From the NCBI GenBank assembly GCA_026770025.1, contig JAMXDE010000006.1, forward strand, positions 682,001 to 746,000: 64,000 nt of DNA, read 5' to 3'. Position numbers and translations under genes: made by a program. Shown in pieces: positions 38,976-50,852 of the stretch; the first letter of the stretch is position 1, and the number at the start of each line of letters is the position of its first letter. The notes under the pieces were generated by a model. That model was not told where the DNA came from. It made no database searches and saw only the letters and a program-made list of their open reading frames with translations. Source of the stretch: Craspedostauros australis (taxonomy: Eukaryota > Bacillariophyta > Bacillariophyceae > Mastogloiales > Achnanthaceae).

Positions 38976-41624
38976 ATGGACGCCTTCGAATCGATAATGT
39001 CGTGGGACGAGAATGAGGACGATGGGGCAGACACCAACGGTGAAAGCAATGCCGCGTTGTCAGATCAGATAGCCGGGAACAACCTCCCTGATCTGGTCTC
39101 TTTCAACTCACTGAAAGATGATGGTTTGAACGCAAACATGCTACAGCTGTTCAATCATGCGAACGCCGCGACAGTGCAGAACCTCAACATGAACAATGGC
39201 GCCGCAGTTGGTCTCGATTCCTCTGTTCTTTCAATCCCAATGCCAAATCCTGTCCAAGGCGGGAACAACGAATCATCGACACTTGCAGAATCACAGTCGA
39301 TGCCCCTCGTTGGTGCCGGAGCATCTTCAGCGACACCCGCGACGATGGGAGCGCCACCAGCTTCTGCCCTCCAACACTCCTTGCCGGCGTCACAGCAGCC
39401 CCAATCGACGTCTTTCCCACAGCACCAGAACACGCAGAACCTGCAGCATGAATTCCCAAACAGTACCAACCAACCAAGGAAGAAGCAAAGGGTCCACAAC
39501 AAGAGCCATCCCTCCAGCTTCACATCATCAAAGACAAAGCAAAAGACTGAAGCTCTTAGTTGTGGCCAGCAGCAGCGGAGACGGCAAAACTCAAAACAAC
39601 ACAAATCAATGGCTCGATCACAGACAAAGCCACATGCTCAGACACAGATTCAGCCTACTCCACAACAGCAGCAACAACAACACCAACAACAACACCAACA
39701 ACAACAGTTCGTCCAGCCCGCGAACATGATCGCCGCGTCGCAGCCGGCACCACAGCCGCAGACACAGCAAGATGGGAACCAAGCAGCAGCGCAGGGCGCC
39801 TCGCAGAACGCTCTGAACCAACGAGGTGCGCTATCGCTGTCGATGTACCAGCAAGGGGCTCTGCTTGCGCAATCTCGGATTGTCAAGCAGCAACATCACC
39901 ATGCACCGACCGCACCACCGCAGCAGCAACAACAGCAGCAGCAGCTCCAGATGCCACAACCAACTCAGGTGCAGGGGCATACACAAGGACAAGTCCAGGT
40001 GCAACCGCAGCAACAACAACTGTCGCTTGCCTCTGTTGTCCCACAGAGCATGCTGCAAAGCGTCGCTGCGACTATACAAAGCCAACAAGCGCATCAACCT
40101 TTTGGTCTTGCGAACAGTCAAAATGCTGTGCGTCAAATTCAGCTCGCGCAGCTGCACCAGCGATACAACGCTGCACAAGCGGGAGCGGCACCGATGCAGC
40201 AGCCCTTCATGTCTCGCGTAGCAGGAGTCGCTTCGCTCCCCGCGCAGCAGGCCCCAGCCCCTGCGTCATCCACACAAGCGCAAGCGGATTCCAAGAAGAT
40301 GATTCCGCAGACGACGCTCAGCGCGCAGCATCAGGCGAGCAGCGTGGCAGCGGTGGCGAGTCTGCAACAGCCCAGGCAGGCCGTTGTATCTGCCAGCGAT
40401 ACAGACGGAGAATTGACCTCGTCGCTTACACTGGCGAGAGGAGATCGCAAGGGAGCATCGCTCTTGTCATCCACATCTGCGTCGCTGGCGGCGTCTTTGT
40501 CAACACGAAAGCGAGCCGACCCAATCGACACTTCGAACATGACACCTGAAGACAGAGCGAGGATCAACAGGGACAGGAACAGAGAGCATGCTCGGAATAC
40601 AAGAATGCGCAAGAAAGCATACCTGGAGAAGCTGAAGAGCATGGTAGAAGATCTTTGCAGAGAGCGCGACACACTCATGTCTGAACGAGCTGGTGCCGCC
40701 AACATCCTAGTGGAGATGCACAACACGAGGACAGAGGTGCTCATGTCTTTCTTCGCGCTCCGCTCGGCCAACGAAAAACGACGAGAGCTTTGGGCGAGCA
40801 TCCTCGACGAGAGCTGTTTTGCTTGCGTCATCCCCGTCACGCCGTACAGATCCTTTCCTGCCAGTGAGGTCCAAGTATCGAAATGTCAACGCACGATCTT
40901 GGGAATCGACGGGATGATGGCAGACACGGCATCGTTGCACGTCCTGCTCAACTCCCTCGTAGATCGCTCGCGCTATCCGAACGCGACGATCAAATTCCGG
41001 TATACTCTCGTGACAGAGGAGGCTGTGGTGGCTGGCAATCAGATGATGGCGCGTTGGGTCATGACAACGGAAAACGCAGCGCAGTGCGGCGCTCGCATGG
41101 AGGTGACCAAGCAGGGCATGCTATGCTGCAAGTTCAACAGCGCACACAAGATCATCGGTCTAGAGCTCATGTTCGACGTGATGGCATTAATGCTGCAGTT
41201 GAAGCAGGCGGCAGGGTCGGACACATTCTCGGTCGTCCCGAACACTGTCCAGACATGCCAACGAAACTTCGATATGCCCATGCTGATGATGCTTGCCGAT
41301 GAGCCTTACACCATCGTGCAAGTCAACAAGCTGTGGGAAAACATGAGCAACTACCAGGCTGAGCAAGTTGTGGGGAAGTCATCGTGCAGGATTCTGGAGG
41401 GAGAAGCCACGGATCCCACAGCGGTCGAAGCATTGATCAACGAAATCCGGTACAAGCGCCCAGCTTCGGCGATGGTCGTGCACTACAAGAAGACTGGGGA
41501 GAGGTTCCGCAACTTTTTCCTTGCATTTCCCTTGAGCACCGATTCCAGAATCACTCATTACCTCATGCTGTCCACGCATGTGGAGCCCATCGCGACGGTT
41601 CTGCCTACTCCGAAAGACATTTGA
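38976..41624 (+). CDS. bZIP transcription factor with NTF2-like and PAS/LOV-like domains
   Basis: Uninterrupted 882 codons from the ATG at 38976. Residues 1-120 are acidic and probably activating; about 120-480 are Gln-rich. The bZIP is at about 522-570: basic region NREHARNTRMRKKAYLEKLK, then a short zipper. Residues about 590-750 look like the NTF2/SnoaL-like domain seen in stramenopile bZIP proteins (PYRSF, GIDGMMADTASL, RWVMTTENAAQCG, LMFDVMALMLQLKQA). The C-terminus (about 765-880) is PAS-like and close to LOV: VVGKSSCRILEGEATD recalls the flavin-Cys motif GRNCRFLQG, with Cys nearly in place. However, LNY is replaced by VHY, FWN by FRN, and the last-strand Gln is missing. Flavin photochemistry is therefore doubtful, unlike true aureochromes. 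Nuclear regulator; targets unknown. Confidence 0.88.
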   Translation: MDAFESIMSWDENEDDGADTNGESNAALSDQIAGNNLPDLVSFNSLKDDGLNANMLQLFNHANAATVQNLNMNNGAAVGLDSSVLSIPMPNPVQGGNNESSTLAESQSMPLVGAGASSATPATMGAPPASALQHSLPASQQPQSTSFPQHQNTQNLQHEFPNSTNQPRKKQRVHNKSHPSSFTSSKTKQKTEALSCGQQQRRRQNSKQHKSMARSQTKPHAQTQIQPTPQQQQQQHQQQHQQQQFVQPANMIAASQPAPQPQTQQDGNQAAAQGASQNALNQRGALSLSMYQQGALLAQSRIVKQQHHHAPTAPPQQQQQQQQLQMPQPTQVQGHTQGQVQVQPQQQQLSLASVVPQSMLQSVAATIQSQQAHQPFGLANSQNAVRQIQLAQLHQRYNAAQAGAAPMQQPFMSRVAGVASLPAQQAPAPASSTQAQADSKKMIPQTTLSAQHQASSVAAVASLQQPRQAVVSASDTDGELTSSLTLARGDRKGASLLSSTSASLAASLSTRKRADPIDTSNMTPEDRARINRDRNREHARNTRMRKKAYLEKLKSMVEDLCRERDTLMSERAGAANILVEMHNTRTEVLMSFFALRSANEKRRELWASILDESCFACVIPVTPYRSFPASEVQVSKCQRTILGIDGMMADTASLHVLLNSLVDRSRYPNATIKFRYTLVTEEAVVAGNQMMARWVMTTENAAQCGARMEVTKQGMLCCKFNSAHKIIGLELMFDVMALMLQLKQAAGSDTFSVVPNTVQTCQRNFDMPMLMMLADEPYTIVQVNKLWENMSNYQAEQVVGKSSCRILEGEATDPTAVEALINEIRYKRPASAMVVHYKKTGERFRNFFLAFPLSTDSRITHYLMLSTHVEPIATVLPTPKDI

Positions 41625-43631: not shown

Positions 43632-44236
43632 GATGGTCCGGTCAATGCACTTGCGGTTATCCTACGCGATCTTCTGTCCCGTCCACGCAGGAGAGGGGGT
43701 TCGATGTTGGTCTTGGCGCTGCTGTTGCCAGTGTGGGTGCGTCTGTTGTTGGCCCTCTCCGGAGGGGCGCCGGAAGTCATCTCCGCAGTCGCGTTCTCAT
43801 GTTTTGTTTCGTTTCGTTTCGTTTCTTTCCGCAGCCTGGCGTTCTCGTCCCTGACGCGCTCCGGCCACCGAAAAGACAGATGGCGTTCTGCGTCATAGAT
43901 TTCGACTGACCGCCGACGGTGTGGCAAAACCTCTGAGGATACCATCGGCACCAACAGTAGAACAAACCCATCACAGTCCCGTCATGGTATCTCGTTGTGG
44001 GCGTGCACCTTGGCTCTACTCAACTGATGGGCCGTACGCCACCATGCATACCATAGCTCGTATAATACATGCTATTACAGTATTATTCTATTCCATAAGA
44101 TTATTCTATGATACGAGCACACCTTGTGTTTGCTACATGTGACCTCTCGCACATACCATCACGCGTACATGCTTCCGGAGTGTACTACTATTCGTCCGCA
44201 TACTTGTACACACTCGTACGAACTTGGCGATCAACC
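43632..44236. promoter_or_regulatory. Bidirectional promoter region (riboflavin kinase / AlkB-like)
   Basis: A 605-bp stretch lies between two divergent starts. The AlkB side carries an AT-rich block (44060-44110) and CACTCGTACG (44211-44220) 17 bases before the AlkB ATG. The kinase side shows GTTTCGTTTCGTTTC repeats (43805-43826). Confidence 0.45.
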
Positions 44237-45994
44237 ATGATGATCCTTCTCCCGCCGCCGACAACCTGCCCAGTCCTACATGCTGTCGTTTGTTTCGTGG
44301 CAGCAGCCATCATCTGCGTCGCAAGGGGGAATGCATACACCGTCTGTGCCTTCTCCCCACCGATTGGAGGTGCGCCAACGTCGACACTTACGATTGCACG
44401 CCGCGTATCAGTCAGAAGCACTGCCACTCTCTTCGCTGCTGATCGTGCTCGCCACAGTAGCAGGACCCACTCCAAAGACAGCGCAAGAAAGCATCATCCA
44501 GCTTCTGTTGGACAGGCCATCCAGGATGCCGAAACGATCCCCCAGCTTTTGGATGTCGCATCTGACATGTGGTTGCCTGACGATGCGCATTTGGCATCGC
44601 ATCTTGCCACCCAGCGCGTCCACCATGAGAAACGACAGAGATGGGCGAGCCAGCTGCTCACAAAGCTATCTCTGCTTCTGACATCGCAAGACCTCGGGGA
44701 TGGTCACGCCGCCAAGTGGATCCGCCCGAACCAGCTAGAGCGTGCCATTTTGGCGGCTGCAATGCCATTCGACGATGAGCCGGCCCTTCCCGAAAAGGAA
44801 GGAAACTGCATTTCGGACGCTCTCAAGGCTATCCATTCGATCCTGGGTCGATGTGAGGAATGCACCGGAGGATTGGAAGTGCTTTCATTGACACCGAGAA
44901 CCACCCAGGCAATTGTCATGCTCGTGCACAGAATCCATGCCATTCTTGATGGGTTGTCCTTGCGAAGCGTTTGCGAATTGCGCTGGGCCATCCAAGGGAT
45001 CAAGTGTCGGCTGCTGCACCACCAAGTCATGGTTGCCAACGCGGGAGAAGATGTGGAATTGACTGCCTCATCCATGGATCTGTCTGCATTCCATTCGAGA
45101 ACGGCTGAATTGCCATTTGACATCATTCCAAAAGCACTCGACTGGCGTCGCATCTGCGCATCTGCACATCGCAGCGATGCCGCAATTCTGCTGCTACGCG
45201 AAGCAATTCCATTTTCGAAGGACACCATCGTGACACGCACGGGAAAGTCCGTCAAGGAACGACGTGGCACCGCCTGGCTGGCCGATAATGGCATTGGCGC
45301 ATTGGCATACAGTGGGAAATTGATGCAGCCACAACCCATCCCTGACATCCTCAACGATGTCATGAAGGCCACAGAAAGTCAGCTGGGCCTGCAGCATGGC
45401 TTCTTTGATTGCGTTTTGTGCAATCATTATCCAGATGGCGATTCCGCTTGCAAATTCCACACAGATCCTGAACATGGAACACACTGGGACCGGATGACAG
45501 TCGTCGTGGCCGCAGGGGAGGATCGCAAATTTGCATTCCGACCCATCCCTCAGCTGTCACAGTGGGAGGAATGGGATCCAAACTCAACGCGATCGGACCG
45601 CTCACCGACGTCCAATTTTGGCGTGGAGAACTTGGCGGCGGCCACCCATTTGTTCTCAGGAGACTTGGTGATAATGAAAGGCGCATGCAACGACCTCTTT
45701 CATCATGCCGTGCACGCATCCGATAGCGATCAACCAGGCGAACGAGTCAGCCTCGTGCTCAAGCGCGCGATTGATCGCGGTGGTGGGAAACGAGGCCACA
45801 GTCTTCGCGGGGAAGGGCGAAGGTCAAGGAAGCCAGGTGCGCCACGTGTTCTGCGCAAGACTTCAGTAGAGGACCACAGAAGACCACAGTCGCCATCCAG
45901 GAATGCAGAACGGCGCAGGAGAAGGACTGCGGCGGCCATGGCGGCGACAGCAACGACGACAACGACGACAAACAGAAATAGTAAGAAGAAATGA
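44237..45994 (+). CDS. AlkB-like Fe(II)/2-oxoglutarate dioxygenase with plastid-type presequence
   Basis: Single exon, 585 residues from the ATG at 44237. Residues about 10-33 are a signal peptide core and the site VCA|FSPP is ASAFAP-like with Phe +1, so plastid import is likely. A helical region of unknown role fills about 80-330. The AlkB domain at about 360-545 has NHYPDGD (N-x-Y), the iron ligands FHTD (HxD) and FHHAV (distal His), and the 2-oxoglutarate region RVSLVLKR. In the last motif the second Arg of the usual R-x5-R falls on Lys, with Arg one position later. AlkB enzymes remove alkyl groups from DNA or RNA bases by oxidation. A basic Ser/Arg and Thr-rich tail ends the protein. Substrate is unproven; organelle DNA or RNA repair is the inference. 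Confidence 0.85.
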   Translation: MMILLPPPTTCPVLHAVVCFVAAAIICVARGNAYTVCAFSPPIGGAPTSTLTIARRVSVRSTATLFAADRARHSSRTHSKDSARKHHPASVGQAIQDAETIPQLLDVASDMWLPDDAHLASHLATQRVHHEKRQRWASQLLTKLSLLLTSQDLGDGHAAKWIRPNQLERAILAAAMPFDDEPALPEKEGNCISDALKAIHSILGRCEECTGGLEVLSLTPRTTQAIVMLVHRIHAILDGLSLRSVCELRWAIQGIKCRLLHHQVMVANAGEDVELTASSMDLSAFHSRTAELPFDIIPKALDWRRICASAHRSDAAILLLREAIPFSKDTIVTRTGKSVKERRGTAWLADNGIGALAYSGKLMQPQPIPDILNDVMKATESQLGLQHGFFDCVLCNHYPDGDSACKFHTDPEHGTHWDRMTVVVAAGEDRKFAFRPIPQLSQWEEWDPNSTRSDRSPTSNFGVENLAAATHLFSGDLVIMKGACNDLFHHAVHASDSDQPGERVSLVLKRAIDRGGGKRGHSLRGEGRRSRKPGAPRVLRKTSVEDHRRPQSPSRNAERRRRRTAAAMAATATTTTTTNRNSKKK

Positions 45995-46356
45995 GTTCGT
46001 TTCCATCAAATTGTAACGGCGCTATGATGTGACGGCATTGACAAATGCCGTACGACGTATACGAGCTGCGAGCGGAGTACGGTACGAGTTACAGGAGAGC
46101 AAGCCATGTGCGCTGCGCCGCGTCACCCGCGAAGTGATGGTACCATGACGATCGACGATCAGGCATATTAGCACCAATACTACTACGAGCCGAGTGGAGC
46201 AGAACAGAGCAGAGGAGAGGAGAGAGGCACTCTTGACCACAATTTTTGACGGCCTCGGCACAAGAGCTGCCCCTCGAGAAAGATACCAATTCCGTCTGAC
46301 ACCACCCCTCGAGAAAGATACCAATTCCATCTGACGCCACCCCTCGCCCAAAAAAA
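45995..46356. other. Intergenic region with 35-bp tandem repeat
   Basis: It follows the AlkB-like gene. Contains ACGTATACGAG and GAGTACGGTACGAG (about 46057-46090), another TACTCGTA-type cluster, and the tandem repeat listed separately. Confidence 0.5.
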
Positions 46357-46366: not shown

Positions 46367-46713
46367 ACATCAGGAGCACCTCGTACATCCACCACCAACG
46401 CAAGGCCGCGAACATCATACTGGAGTAGCTCGCATTCGGAGGAGCAATAGTAACTCACCTTTGGGGAGAGGACATCACGCAGTGGCTGATGCGAGTTCAG
46501 AGGGTCACAGCCGGCGCCCACGATTGTCAAACCTAAGAGAGCGAAGTCGTACTGTACTTGTACCTTCTTGCCGTGACTTGCGCACGCCATCCATTGATTT
46601 GGTGTACCCGCCATCATTACGAACGCTGAACTCGTCGGGCCAAAGGCTGGAGAAGAGGCATAGACGTCTTCCAAAGAACACCGTCTGCCAACAGTGTGCC
46701 CAGATTGCAACAT
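46357..46713 (-). CDS. Possible small protein, antisense-abutting the homeodomain gene
   Basis: A minus-strand frame of 118 codons starts at ATG 46713 and ends near the tandem repeat. Its composition is protein-like (YDFALLGLTIVGAGCDP, PNQWMACASHGKKVQVQ). A GTGAGT donor after LSPK (around 46457) could make it an exon. Its ATG shares the tetramer CATG (46711-46714) with the ATG of the opposite gene, leaving no promoter between them, so at least one start may be misplaced. No family recognised. Confidence 0.3.
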   Translation of the reverse strand: MLQSGHTVGRRCSLEDVYASSPAFGPTSSAFVMMAGTPNQWMACASHGKKVQVQYDFALLGLTIVGAGCDPLNSHQPLRDVLSPKVSYYCSSECELLQYDVRGLALVVDVRGAPDVPS

Positions 46714-48748
46714 GGGTCGCAACGGACCCAACGCCGACAACGATGATACCTCACAACGCACGTCGCCCGGGTATCATTTGCGATACATCGATGAATTTGT
46801 TCGGTTGCGATCAGCACCGTTGCTGTTGGAACTGGGTGTATACCCAGACGCCAAGGAAATCACGGAAGCCATGGGAGCATTTGAAGCGATGAGAGCGTTC
46901 GTACAGCCCAATATAATCCCCACATCGAGCGGAGGCGGCGACATCGACAGGAGCGACAGTCTCGGGAATGGAGCGCAGCATCTCGCGCAGCCAGCCGAGG
47001 TAGAACAGGTGAGATCGGCGCAGAACCAACAGGCTCGCAGGCGATGCATCATCTGTGTTGGGGATGGATCGACGCCCCGTTCAGCTGCATTGTTTGCCGT
47101 ACGTTGCAAGGAATGGGAGGCGGTTGCTATCGACCCGATGCTACGGCCGCTGGGCGAGAATCCGAAAAAACTCGAGCCAAAGGCTGCCGATCGATCGTTG
47201 GATGGCAGGAGAATCCCGAGGGTGATCGATCACACACCGTCATGGTCGCACAGGGTCCAACGACTGACGGTTTACCAAGCCAAGATCCAGGATGTTCAGA
47301 TCTCCTGCGACGAGGCCATCATTGTGCTGCTTCATGCCCACGTATCGTTGCATGATGTACTGAACGCGGTCGATTGCCCTTCCATACATGGGCTCATCAC
47401 CCTTCCATGCTGCCAATACATTCACCAGCATCGTCGGCTGTGGAACCGCGGTCCTGACATTGCCTATCACGATGCATCGATCGCGAGTCCTCATAATGAA
47501 ATCAGGATCTGGACTCAACGTACGAGTGGAACTGGGCAGTGCCAACTGACCACGAAAATGGGACAGGTGCGCGAGTATTGTGAAAGTGTCACCAACATCA
47601 GTGGCGCGAGGAACGCACAGTGCGATGGACCAAACTCGACCACGCCTACTTCTGCCGCTTCAAACGGTGAATTGCACCACATTGATGATGGTACTCCCAA
47701 TAGGCGCAGCCAGACTGGAAACGCCTCATCAGTTGGAGACGGTGCAGAGGCCAGCAGCTTAATTCAGAGCGATGCGGGCAGCAGTGCCCTTGAAGACGAA
47801 GAGAAGAAGACGACCCGGTCTTGCCTCACGCAGGACATCCCGAAAAGGTACCAACGGCCCAGCGATGATCAAACGAGTCAGCTGAAGGCAGCTTTTAGTC
47901 GGCAGACATACTATTCCAACAACGAAATCGATGCCCTTGCTGCTTCCATCGGGCTATCATCGGAGCAATGCAAACAGTGGTTCAAGAAGAGACGGAAGCA
48001 GCAGAACAAGAACAACAACAAGAGCAGGGCAAAGTCAGGCAGGTGTGCCGATGGTACCAATGGTGGCTCTGTGCCACCGGATACGGCTCAGCTCACTCAG
48101 CCGTCCGAATGGCGAAGATATGCCATCGCCACGACGCCAGCGCCGTGGAAGGAGGCAGCGAATGCTCGGGATCTTGCTGCGGTTGCAGCCGAGGCAACTA
48201 CTTCACTGAGTGCTGGTGAAGTCTGCCCGAAGGCGCACACTGTGTCTTCGAGCAGCGAGGGGGTGACAATGAACGCCGTAGCACATTATTTTCGACCCAG
48301 TTCAGATGTGTATGGAGATAACGAACGCTTCGCGCTATCGCATGGTATCGTGGTCGCGGTGAGAAAATGCAGCAACATGTGCTTCTTCAGCATTGCGGAC
48401 AAGAACGATCCCAGGACACGCAACATCTTGCAGATCTGTGTATCTGCAACGCTGATGAAAGATCTTTCGGTGTCCGCGGTGGCAGCTTCGGCTGGCGAAA
48501 AGTCCCATGCGAGCCAGAGTGGGAGGGTGCCACTTGGTGAAGGGGGGTCATCTCGCATACTGACAGCAGAACAGACGGTGCGCTGTTGGAAGAAAGCCAT
48601 CAAGGTTGGCGATTGGATTCAATTCTGCGGGATGCTGGGCATTCCGCGCGCCAGCAGCACGGCAGCGCATCGAGGCAAGCCCACCATGTTCTGTTGGCAA
48701 ATGTGGTTGGTCGGTGACGTAGAAAGTATGGGTAGAGCCATCATATAG
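46712..48748 (+). CDS. Rossmann (methyltransferase-like) + homeodomain + OB-fold protein
   Basis: Single frame of 678 residues from the ATG at 46712. Region 1 (about 110-270) looks like a Rossmann fold with a SAM-type glycine loop: IICVGDGSTPRSAALFAVR, then VAIDP, and later AIIVLLHAHV as the mid-sheet strand. Region 2 (about 377-433) is a homeodomain: KRYQRPSDDQTSQLKAAF through LSSEQCKQWFKKRRKQQ, with helix 3 WF-KKRR. The otherwise invariant Asn51 of WFQNRR is Lys here. Region 3 (about 530-678) resembles a nucleic-acid OB-fold: IVVAVRKCSNMCFFSIADK, LQICV, then KVGDWIQFCGMLGIPRA and WLVGDVESMG. Linkers are Ser/Thr/Asn-rich and acidic. A nuclear nucleic-acid-binding role follows from regions 2-3. 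Region 1 lacks a proven catalytic motif and could be enzymatic or structural. Confidence 0.72.
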   Translation: MGRNGPNADNDDTSQRTSPGYHLRYIDEFVRLRSAPLLLELGVYPDAKEITEAMGAFEAMRAFVQPNIIPTSSGGGDIDRSDSLGNGAQHLAQPAEVEQVRSAQNQQARRRCIICVGDGSTPRSAALFAVRCKEWEAVAIDPMLRPLGENPKKLEPKAADRSLDGRRIPRVIDHTPSWSHRVQRLTVYQAKIQDVQISCDEAIIVLLHAHVSLHDVLNAVDCPSIHGLITLPCCQYIHQHRRLWNRGPDIAYHDASIASPHNEIRIWTQRTSGTGQCQLTTKMGQVREYCESVTNISGARNAQCDGPNSTTPTSAASNGELHHIDDGTPNRRSQTGNASSVGDGAEASSLIQSDAGSSALEDEEKKTTRSCLTQDIPKRYQRPSDDQTSQLKAAFSRQTYYSNNEIDALAASIGLSSEQCKQWFKKRRKQQNKNNNKSRAKSGRCADGTNGGSVPPDTAQLTQPSEWRRYAIATTPAPWKEAANARDLAAVAAEATTSLSAGEVCPKAHTVSSSSEGVTMNAVAHYFRPSSDVYGDNERFALSHGIVVAVRKCSNMCFFSIADKNDPRTRNILQICVSATLMKDLSVSAVAASAGEKSHASQSGRVPLGEGGSSRILTAEQTVRCWKKAIKVGDWIQFCGMLGIPRASSTAAHRGKPTMFCWQMWLVGDVESMGRAII

Positions 48749-49037: not shown

Positions 49038-50852
49038 TCATATGATCCCGTCCAAGCATAGCACAACATTATCTTGTGGGCCACATGAGGCGGTCGGTGG
49101 TCTGTCGGGCACAATGCCAACGCCGTGGATGTCACGGCCATTCGGCGTGATGTACTTCGCCTTGGTAACCGCAATACCGCTTCCATCCTCCAATGGTTGC
49201 ACATTCTGAATCCTCCCTTTCCCAAACGTCTTGTATCCGACCACAGTGGCGCGTTGGTTATCCTGGAGTGCGGCGGTGAGAATTTCTGACGCGCTCGCTG
49301 TGCGCTTGTCGACGACGACGTAAAGAGGGATGTCTGCATCGCTTCCGACGCCATCATTGATATAGATTGCTGACCGGCCTGTCTTGTCAACCTCGGAAAT
49401 GATCCTTGCCCGTGGTGGGAGGAAGAGCTTGGCCACGTCGACGCCAGCAGGCATGTATCCACCGGCATTTCCGCGCAGATCGAGGACCACGGCAGTGCTT
49501 CCCTTGCGCACTTCAGCCACGGCAGCCATAACTTGATTGGCCGTGTTCTGATTGAAGCTGGTGATCCGAATCACCCCGATGGCATTCCCCATCCTCGTGG
49601 AGACTATCTGGCCCGCTATCTGGTTGCTCCTGATGGTTGCCCTCGTGACGGAAACCCGGATCGTTTCGGCTTGATGATCTTGCGTACGAGTACTGCCATC
49701 GCTGTTCTTGCTGCCGCTGCTGCTGCTCAATCTATGGGCATCTGCATCGCGCCGCCCAATTGCCAAGGTTAAATCAGTCCCGATTTCGCCCCGACACTTG
49801 GCGGCGACCACATCAGAGGTTGCACCCGTCATGTCCTCGCCGTTGATCTCTTCCACTATATCGCCAGGTACGACGCCAGCCTTTGCAGCTGGTCCATCCA
49901 GAATCGTGTTGAGGATCAGGACCTTTCCAGTGAGGGGATCTGACATGAGCTGAACACCGATGCCACCGGTCGATGTCCCTTTCGCGTATGCTGTCAACGA
50001 ATCAAACTGCGACGGCGTAAGGAACCTGGTGTACGGATCTCCCAGCGGTTCCAACATGCTCCGGATGACCGAGTACACTTCCTCCTTGTCGTCAGGTCCG
50101 ATATTGGCAACTTTCTTCATCGCTTCCGTCCTTTTGCTTTTCCATCGTTCTTCACCAAGGCCGTTGAAGGTTGGATCCACGAACTGCCGATTCACCTCTT
50201 TCCATACGTCGTCCACGAGCCATTGCTGCTCGGTCAACGCCAGCGCCACTGAATTCGTCACCAACCTTGGTGATCTGGCCAGGATACTCATCCGGTCGTT
50301 CTCTGGCGGAGCGGCTTGCGTTCCAAGGGTAATTTTCATCGCAGGAGCGCAGAGAATGGATACCATCAGGAGCATGCTCGTTGCCATCTTGCGAAAAGCT
50401 ACCGTCTTCGGCATCTGCAAATTGAAGGCGTGCTTCGTAGATTCGCGATGAGCGCGACTGGAGGCCTTTGGCGGGAGGCCTGCCGCGAGGTGCTGTTCTG
50501 GCTGTGAGTCCGCATCGAGCTGCGCCGGGCGTGCGAGATGCGTCGCATGCGAACCTACGCCTGATCCAACCTGTTGGTTTTGCTGCCGCAAGTTGAACCA
50601 CTGGCGTGGCTGTGCTTGTGGTTGCGGCTGTTCGGCTCGTAGTGCTGTTCGTTTCGCCTGCGGGCATGGCGAAACGGGCGTGGCCAAGGCCCTATTTCTG
50701 TCATTTCCACCGGCGCTGGTGCATTTGTTCCCTCTACGAACGTTGGCGTTCCACGAGGCGATCTGCAAGCAGGACACAGCGCCGCCACGGGGGTAGCAGC
50801 TGGTGATAGCAACGGCAACCAAAAGAAAACGCCAGCATGTTTGTATCCTCAT
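49038..50852 (-). CDS. ctpA: Carboxyl-terminal processing protease CtpA (D1 processing), thylakoid lumen
   Basis: Single exon, 604 residues from the ATG at 50852. It is an S41 serine protease that trims the C-terminus of the photosystem II D1 precursor so the manganese cluster can assemble. An N-terminal domain leads to a PDZ domain (about 291-365: GGIGVQL, GPAAKAGVVPGDIVEEING). The tail-specific protease core has LDLRGNAGGYM, catalytic Ser522 in TASASEIL and Lys545 in YKTFGKGRIQ. Two hydrophobic segments precede: residues about 8-18 (ER signal peptide) and about 157-180 (SMLLMVSILCAPAM...TQAAPP, lumen transfer). These make a tripartite route to the thylakoid lumen; the long linker between them serves as transit peptide. 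A short Ser-rich insert (about 374-390) interrupts the domain after PDZ. Only members of this family have this Ser/Lys pair. Confidence 0.94.
   Translation of the reverse strand: MRIQTCWRFLLVAVAITSCYPRGGAVSCLQIASWNANVRRGNKCTSAGGNDRNRALATPVSPCPQAKRTALRAEQPQPQAQPRQWFNLRQQNQQVGSGVGSHATHLARPAQLDADSQPEQHLAAGLPPKASSRAHRESTKHAFNLQMPKTVAFRKMATSMLLMVSILCAPAMKITLGTQAAPPENDRMSILARSPRLVTNSVALALTEQQWLVDDVWKEVNRQFVDPTFNGLGEERWKSKRTEAMKKVANIGPDDKEEVYSVIRSMLEPLGDPYTRFLTPSQFDSLTAYAKGTSTGGIGVQLMSDPLTGKVLILNTILDGPAAKAGVVPGDIVEEINGEDMTGATSDVVAAKCRGEIGTDLTLAIGRRDADAHRLSSSSGSKNSDGSTRTQDHQAETIRVSVTRATIRSNQIAGQIVSTRMGNAIGVIRITSFNQNTANQVMAAVAEVRKGSTAVVLDLRGNAGGYMPAGVDVAKLFLPPRARIISEVDKTGRSAIYINDGVGSDADIPLYVVVDKRTASASEILTAALQDNQRATVVGYKTFGKGRIQNVQPLEDGSGIAVTKAKYITPNGRDIHGVGIVPDRPPTASCGPQDNVVLCLDGII

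Follow-up and report, generated by a model that had tools for sequence, protein, structure and literature searches.

A diatom open reading frame joining a viral-contig protein domain, a homeodomain without Asn51 and a possible OB-fold tail

Two kinds of described system bear comparison with the protein reported here. The ciliate MTA1 complex, which comprises MTA1, MTA9, p1 and p2, is a DNA N6-adenine methyltransferase that binds DNA with the help of two homeobox-like subunits, according to accounts of that complex (PMC9174199, PMC9852454). A second point of reference is HOP/HOPX. The homeodomain of Hop carries altered DNA-contact residues and is reported to have given no DNA binding in gel shifts (PMC2533040), and HOPX is described as the smallest homeodomain protein (PMC12608687).

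The window analysed is a stretch of 64,000 nucleotides from the diatom Craspedostauros australis. As read from its sequence, a single frame on this eukaryotic contig encodes a viral-type domain, a homeodomain with lysine at positions 50 and 51, and a C-terminal region of ~150 residues (P0001; Table 1). The sequence-only reading knew of no described protein joining such parts, and our literature searches likewise gave no such combination. We regard the domain combination as real and unfamiliar, and its function as a prediction.

Table 1. Features of the P0001 gene in window coordinates.
Feature	Residues	Coordinates	Strand	Evidence
Complete P0001 frame, 678 aa and stop codon	1-678	46712..48748	+	ORF reading, codon usage
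N-terminal helical part of viral-contig family (RYIDEF...KEITEA)	23-67	46778..46912	+	35.2 bits, domain 1
Insertion, far longer than in other rows	68-103	46913..47020	+	Alignment A2, profile
Glycine-loop domain (GDGSTPRS, IDP, HAH, PCC)	104-269	47021..47518	+	114.0 bits, domain 2
Second insertion, within glycine-loop domain (edges approximate)	~146-174	47147..47233	+	Alignment A2, profile
Linker	270-375	47519..47836	+	No family match
Homeodomain, WFKKRRK in helix 3	376-435	47837..48016	+	PF00046, 1.2e-9
Codon AAG, homeodomain position 51 (Lys for Asn)	426	47987..47989	+	Homeodomain numbering
Linker	436-524	48017..48283	+	No significant family match
C-terminal region, possible OB-fold with insert	525-678	48284..48745	+	PF01336, E 0.02, insert left out

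When the window sequence was compared with domain libraries and the PDB, only the homeodomain was found. The nature of the N-terminal domain emerged instead from its relatives. A family profile built without the window row, from which the domain bit scores in Table 1 also derive, finds the P0001 frame at an E-value of 2.8e-46 through residues 23-67 and 104-269. The same profile gave a best value of 0.28 among 616 other window frames and of 1.5 among 201 shuffled or reversed controls, and on this basis a chance likeness was rejected. In the 23-row alignment that includes the window protein (alignment A2), 12 columns are invariant, corresponding in P0001 to G117, D118, G119, R123, A126, D141, P142, H208, H210, C233, C234 and D254. 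The algal protein departs from three near-invariant columns (Ser to Ala in KEITES, Thr to Ser in TPRT, and Ser to Ala in SIDP), and its two insertions are missing or far shorter elsewhere in the alignment. With a profile match along the full length and all 12 invariant residues retained, P0001 belongs to a viral-contig GDGxTPR family, and these comparisons show homology between its entire N-terminal domain and a protein that occurs on its own in viral contigs. This assignment of the first ~270 residues, which is made by profile, had no place in the sequence-only reading, an interpretation that is partly supported overall.

Relatives were sought in viral contigs and prokaryote genomes, using as seed a degenerate DNA pattern for GDGxTPR[ST]AA followed by a whole-length check. 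The pattern matched 18 viral-contig stretches and 84 prokaryote-genome stretches, of which 14 encode proteins related to P0001 through most of the domain (E-values down to 4.4e-25 by phmmer and 7e-25 by BLASTP). Twelve of these are viral, and the other two come from metagenome-assembled genomes (MAGs) of a gammaproteobacterium (L076) and a member of the Obscuribacterales (L099). Because the L076 protein is identical to that of viral contig L032, and because each of the two contigs is 42,072 bases long, L076 is probably that same viral contig assigned to a MAG during binning. A further four stretches cleared the phmmer inclusion line (2.9e-4 to 0.0071). However, BLASTP matches for three of these, and for L048 (22 residues), are confined to 15-22 residues at the motif, and such stretches were therefore counted as chance.

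Profile-guided scans raised the number of viral loci to 28 and then to 34 (from 92 pattern-bearing stretches), some of them near-identical; by sequence comparison the known members thus come from 34 viral contigs and a single bacterial MAG. Text patterns recognised all five motifs in 29 of these viral loci. Two motifs are missing from L235 and one from each of L244 and L246, and some are cut off by the contig end in L250 and L251. The viral members stand alone, with the frame ending 0-27 residues past the domain in every one of the 34 loci (in L251 it is the contig itself that ends), unlike the algal protein, which runs ~400 residues beyond it. The family is rare in cells, being present in 1 of 386 genomes of one phylum and 1 of 398 of another, in each case the genome that had seeded the search. 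The viral contig that carries one member (L239) measures 458,729 bases, a length that implies a very large virus.

Other routes to relatives gave nothing. No relative came from scanning viral and prokaryote contigs for exact peptides or from tblastn of plasmid and phage records with the window protein, and tblastn with one viral member against 50,697 named phage records was likewise negative. Existing libraries do not recognise the family either. Pfam searches with 23 members touched 11 families, each in at most two members (best E 0.0032), with none over its cut-off among the matches listed; PHROGs gave 10 families (best 0.0021) and none at E 0.001; NCBIfam, searched with the window protein only, returned no match for the N-terminal domain; and the family profile found nothing convincing in the PDB. 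In a tree of 21 of the 23 rows, from which the partial rows L141 and L148 were dropped, the window protein is unplaced on a long branch (1.63), and the tree is therefore silent on the direction of transfer.

The sequence-only reading had called the glycine-loop region a methyltransferase-like Rossmann domain. That it is a conserved domain holds up, as evident from its viral homologs, whereas profile comparison found no methyltransferase kinship. Cofactor-binding loops usually have this layout, in which GDG follows one strand and IDP the next, and the order of the family motifs (GDG, IDP, HxH, PCC and closing strands) resembles that of a class I enzyme. Nevertheless, hhalign comparisons of the family with PF13679 (Methyltransf_32) and generic methyltransferase profiles gave 0.1-5.1%, with 0.1-0.6% for a reversed control, versus 90.6-98.0% for PF13679 against the generic profiles and 99.9% for two halves of PF13679. 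The generic control is flattered, since its set (16 of 27 sequences, picked by length) had itself been retrieved with PF13679. On these results, a proven kinship with class I SAM-dependent methyltransferases was rejected.

A single one of the 23 members (L125) matched Methyltransf_32 at all, collinearly with positions 9-137 of 143 (E 0.045), and two unrelated families outscore this match. Methyltransf_32 proteins carry HAC...PCC, which corresponds in order to the HxH...PCC of the family, but differ in that the best family score is 14.2 bits against a cut-off of 27 and hhalign gives 0.5-5.1%. An AlphaFold prediction of the N-terminal domain made with no alignment of relatives reached a pLDDT of 41.5, and its Foldseek list was noise. 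With regard to the METHYLTRANSFERASE question, membership was not found, and that the domain works like one stays our best guess. A Rossmann or SAM-type enzyme is likewise retained as the best guess for the first domain because of the motif order and the one sub-threshold, collinear match.

The few viral contigs inspected are phage-like, carrying genes for DnaB, a DnaG-type zinc finger, DNA polymerase A and a DNA methylase. RNA ligase genes occur in 5 of the 27 loci scanned, a raw count from a set that includes duplicates and short stretches. These five represent four lineages, since L023 and L133 are near-identical, and a further weak RNA ligase match occurs in L131. In one locus (L146:8640-10364) the family member is followed directly downstream by a PAPS-reductase-type gene and a gene for Thg1 (tRNA-His guanylyltransferase). 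Such neighbours no more than hint at an RNA role.

These observations bear on the alternative that the first domain is an enzyme other than a methyltransferase, such as an undescribed viral nucleotide or RNA-end enzyme that combines a glycine loop with His and Cys residues for metal or acid-base chemistry. The failure to find profile kinship although the controls worked, the invariance of HxH and CC, and the presence of RNA ligases and Thg1 would all suit such an enzyme. Yet the consecutive-strand setting of GDG and IDP and the collinear L125 match speak for a cofactor-binding enzyme of the methyltransferase type, and the ligase count is a raw one. We consider this alternative rather unlikely.

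The second part of P0001 is certain to be a homeodomain on profile evidence and has the typical length. The PF00046 match covers residues 378-431 at 38.3 bits, above the curated cut-off of 22.9. Asn51 is the adenine-reading residue of homeodomains; in P0001 positions 50 and 51 are Lys425 and Lys426, which agrees with the earlier claim that this asparagine is absent. Elsewhere in the genome, searches with PF00046 at E-values up to 1 bring the number of places to seven, of which six reach the cut-off, a lower bound because the search ignores introns. The five other homeodomains that reach the cut-off (L006-L010) look TALE-like and have Asn at the place corresponding to position 51.

A homeodomain of this kind also enters into the proposal that P0001 is a regulator, in which the enzyme part is an inactive scaffold and the protein works in transcription as a homeodomain factor. 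The three changed near-invariant residues (giving KEITEA, TPRS and AIDP) and the two insertions in the enzyme part would suit this proposal. However, retention of all 12 invariant residues makes a dead enzyme unlikely, and a regulator of transcription is not well served by a homeodomain that has lost Asn51. The dead-enzyme scaffold offered by the sequence-only reading is thus disfavoured, and we judge the regulator quite improbable. An enzyme that retains activity is preferred for the first domain.

The C-terminal region was more difficult to classify, and the earlier suggestion of an OB-fold is weakly supported by sequence matching. The intact tail had no match in Pfam, NCBIfam or PHROGs, and in the PDB it recovered just two chance-level chains. 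When a middle insert was cut out by eye, after a guess that the tail resembles the OB domain of aminoacyl-tRNA synthetases, only two Pfam families were listed and both are OB folds (PF01336 at 0.02 and OB_DEPS-1_1st at 0.29). The tail would resemble the tRNA_anti-codon OB-fold family (PF01336) in that this is its best Pfam match once the insert is left out, but differs in scoring 15.2 bits against a cut-off of 27 and in lacking a PDB match. Each tail half alone gave other, noise-level Pfam families, tail pieces compared with the PDB gave nothing, and an AlphaFold model (pLDDT 34.2) returned a Foldseek list of noise.

That these parts lie in one real, uninterrupted frame is confirmed. It is very improbable that two or three genes, or unrecognised introns, share the open frame by chance: although the gene model derives from genomic sequence alone, its 5′ end is uncertain (GTG 46694 is a possible alternative start) and the first domain carries two insertions, the stop-free stretch spans 694 codons (46664-48745), whereas the longest ORF in each of 20 simulated sequences (first-order Markov, 64 kb each) was 221-317 codons, and codon usage, in a model trained on two neighbouring genes only, ranks the P0001 frame above the other five over the whole length and above the two other forward frames in each of five regions, among them the two linkers. 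The gene is single-copy, with one match in the 74.8-Mb genome at E 0.001, and searches with pieces of P0001 up to E 10 found nothing more, save one match of 0.48. Contamination or a viral insert was rejected because the gene sits within a 3.4-Mb contig, flanked by identified 2OG-Fe(II) oxygenase and S41 peptidase frames.

The oxygenase frame is of AlkB type (44108-45994, forward strand; PF13532, 1.1e-10) and lies ~700 bases upstream on the same strand as P0001, an arrangement that may set a possible demethylase beside a possible methylating enzyme, perhaps by chance. The peptidase frame (49038-50852, reverse strand) includes a PDZ domain, converges on the P0001 gene, and looks like a C-terminal processing protease. 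A tandem repeat with a 35-base unit (2.2 copies) occupies 46270-46346, upstream of the gene. A bZIP domain followed by PAS is the domain order of aureochromes, and a similar, aureochrome-like order is apparent in the forward frame at 38976-41624, where the bZIP match is below the curated cut-off and no LOV motif was recognised by a text pattern. Published accounts place aureochromes exclusively in stramenopiles or heterokont algae (PMC9416419, PMC3779222). The genome also matches the light-harvesting family at 61 places; for one of these proteins the top PDB matches are long fused LHCI chains, with a fucoxanthin chlorophyll a/c protein and VCPI-1 leading among short chains. On these sequence features a photosynthetic stramenopile is the likely source.

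Our best reading, which we find plausible while stopping just short of calling it probable, is that P0001 is a domesticated virus-type and probably nucleic-acid-modifying enzyme with added docking domains, working by a mechanism that we infer. The genes carried by viral contigs of the family, among them those for DnaB, DNA polymerase A, a DNA methylase, RNA ligases and Thg1, also favour this reading. The first domain is predicted to be a catalytically active enzyme of Rossmann type, probably dependent on SAM, with nucleic acid as its substrate. Its GDG would bind the cofactor, the aspartate of IDP would contact the cofactor's ribose, and the active site would be lined by HxH and PCC. Lacking Asn51, the homeodomain would act as a basic module for docking, its specificity relaxed or altered, and the OB-like tail would bind tRNA or nucleic acid in single-stranded form. 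Such a protein probably originated when a virus-type enzyme was captured and then fused with host modules. More tentatively, the alga may have domesticated an undescribed viral nucleic-acid-modifying enzyme through its fusion to a homeodomain that has ceased to read its usual base and to an OB-like tail, thereby gaining a DNA or RNA modifier with built-in docking.

The fusion connects a viral-contig family unrecognised by Pfam and PHROGs with eukaryotic partners that bind nucleic acid, which suggests a substrate class that is open to direct testing. It also presents a homeodomain without Asn51 in a context that may call on it to dock instead of reading sequence. P0001 resembles HOP/HOPX in that DNA-contacting homeodomain residues are changed, but HOPX, as described, has no enzyme domain. 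The lack of DNA binding reported for Hop would suit a protein-docking role for the P0001 homeodomain instead. The nearest described arrangement is the MTA1 complex, where a modifying enzyme likewise works with homeobox-like domains that aid DNA binding. The enzyme of that complex is an MT-A70-type protein with a DPPW motif, whereas P0001 has no Pfam match to such a domain up to E 10 and no DPPW in its translation. In the ciliate complex, as those accounts describe it, the homeobox-like parts reside on separate subunits; in P0001, if the enzyme is active, the homeodomain would be carried on the same chain.
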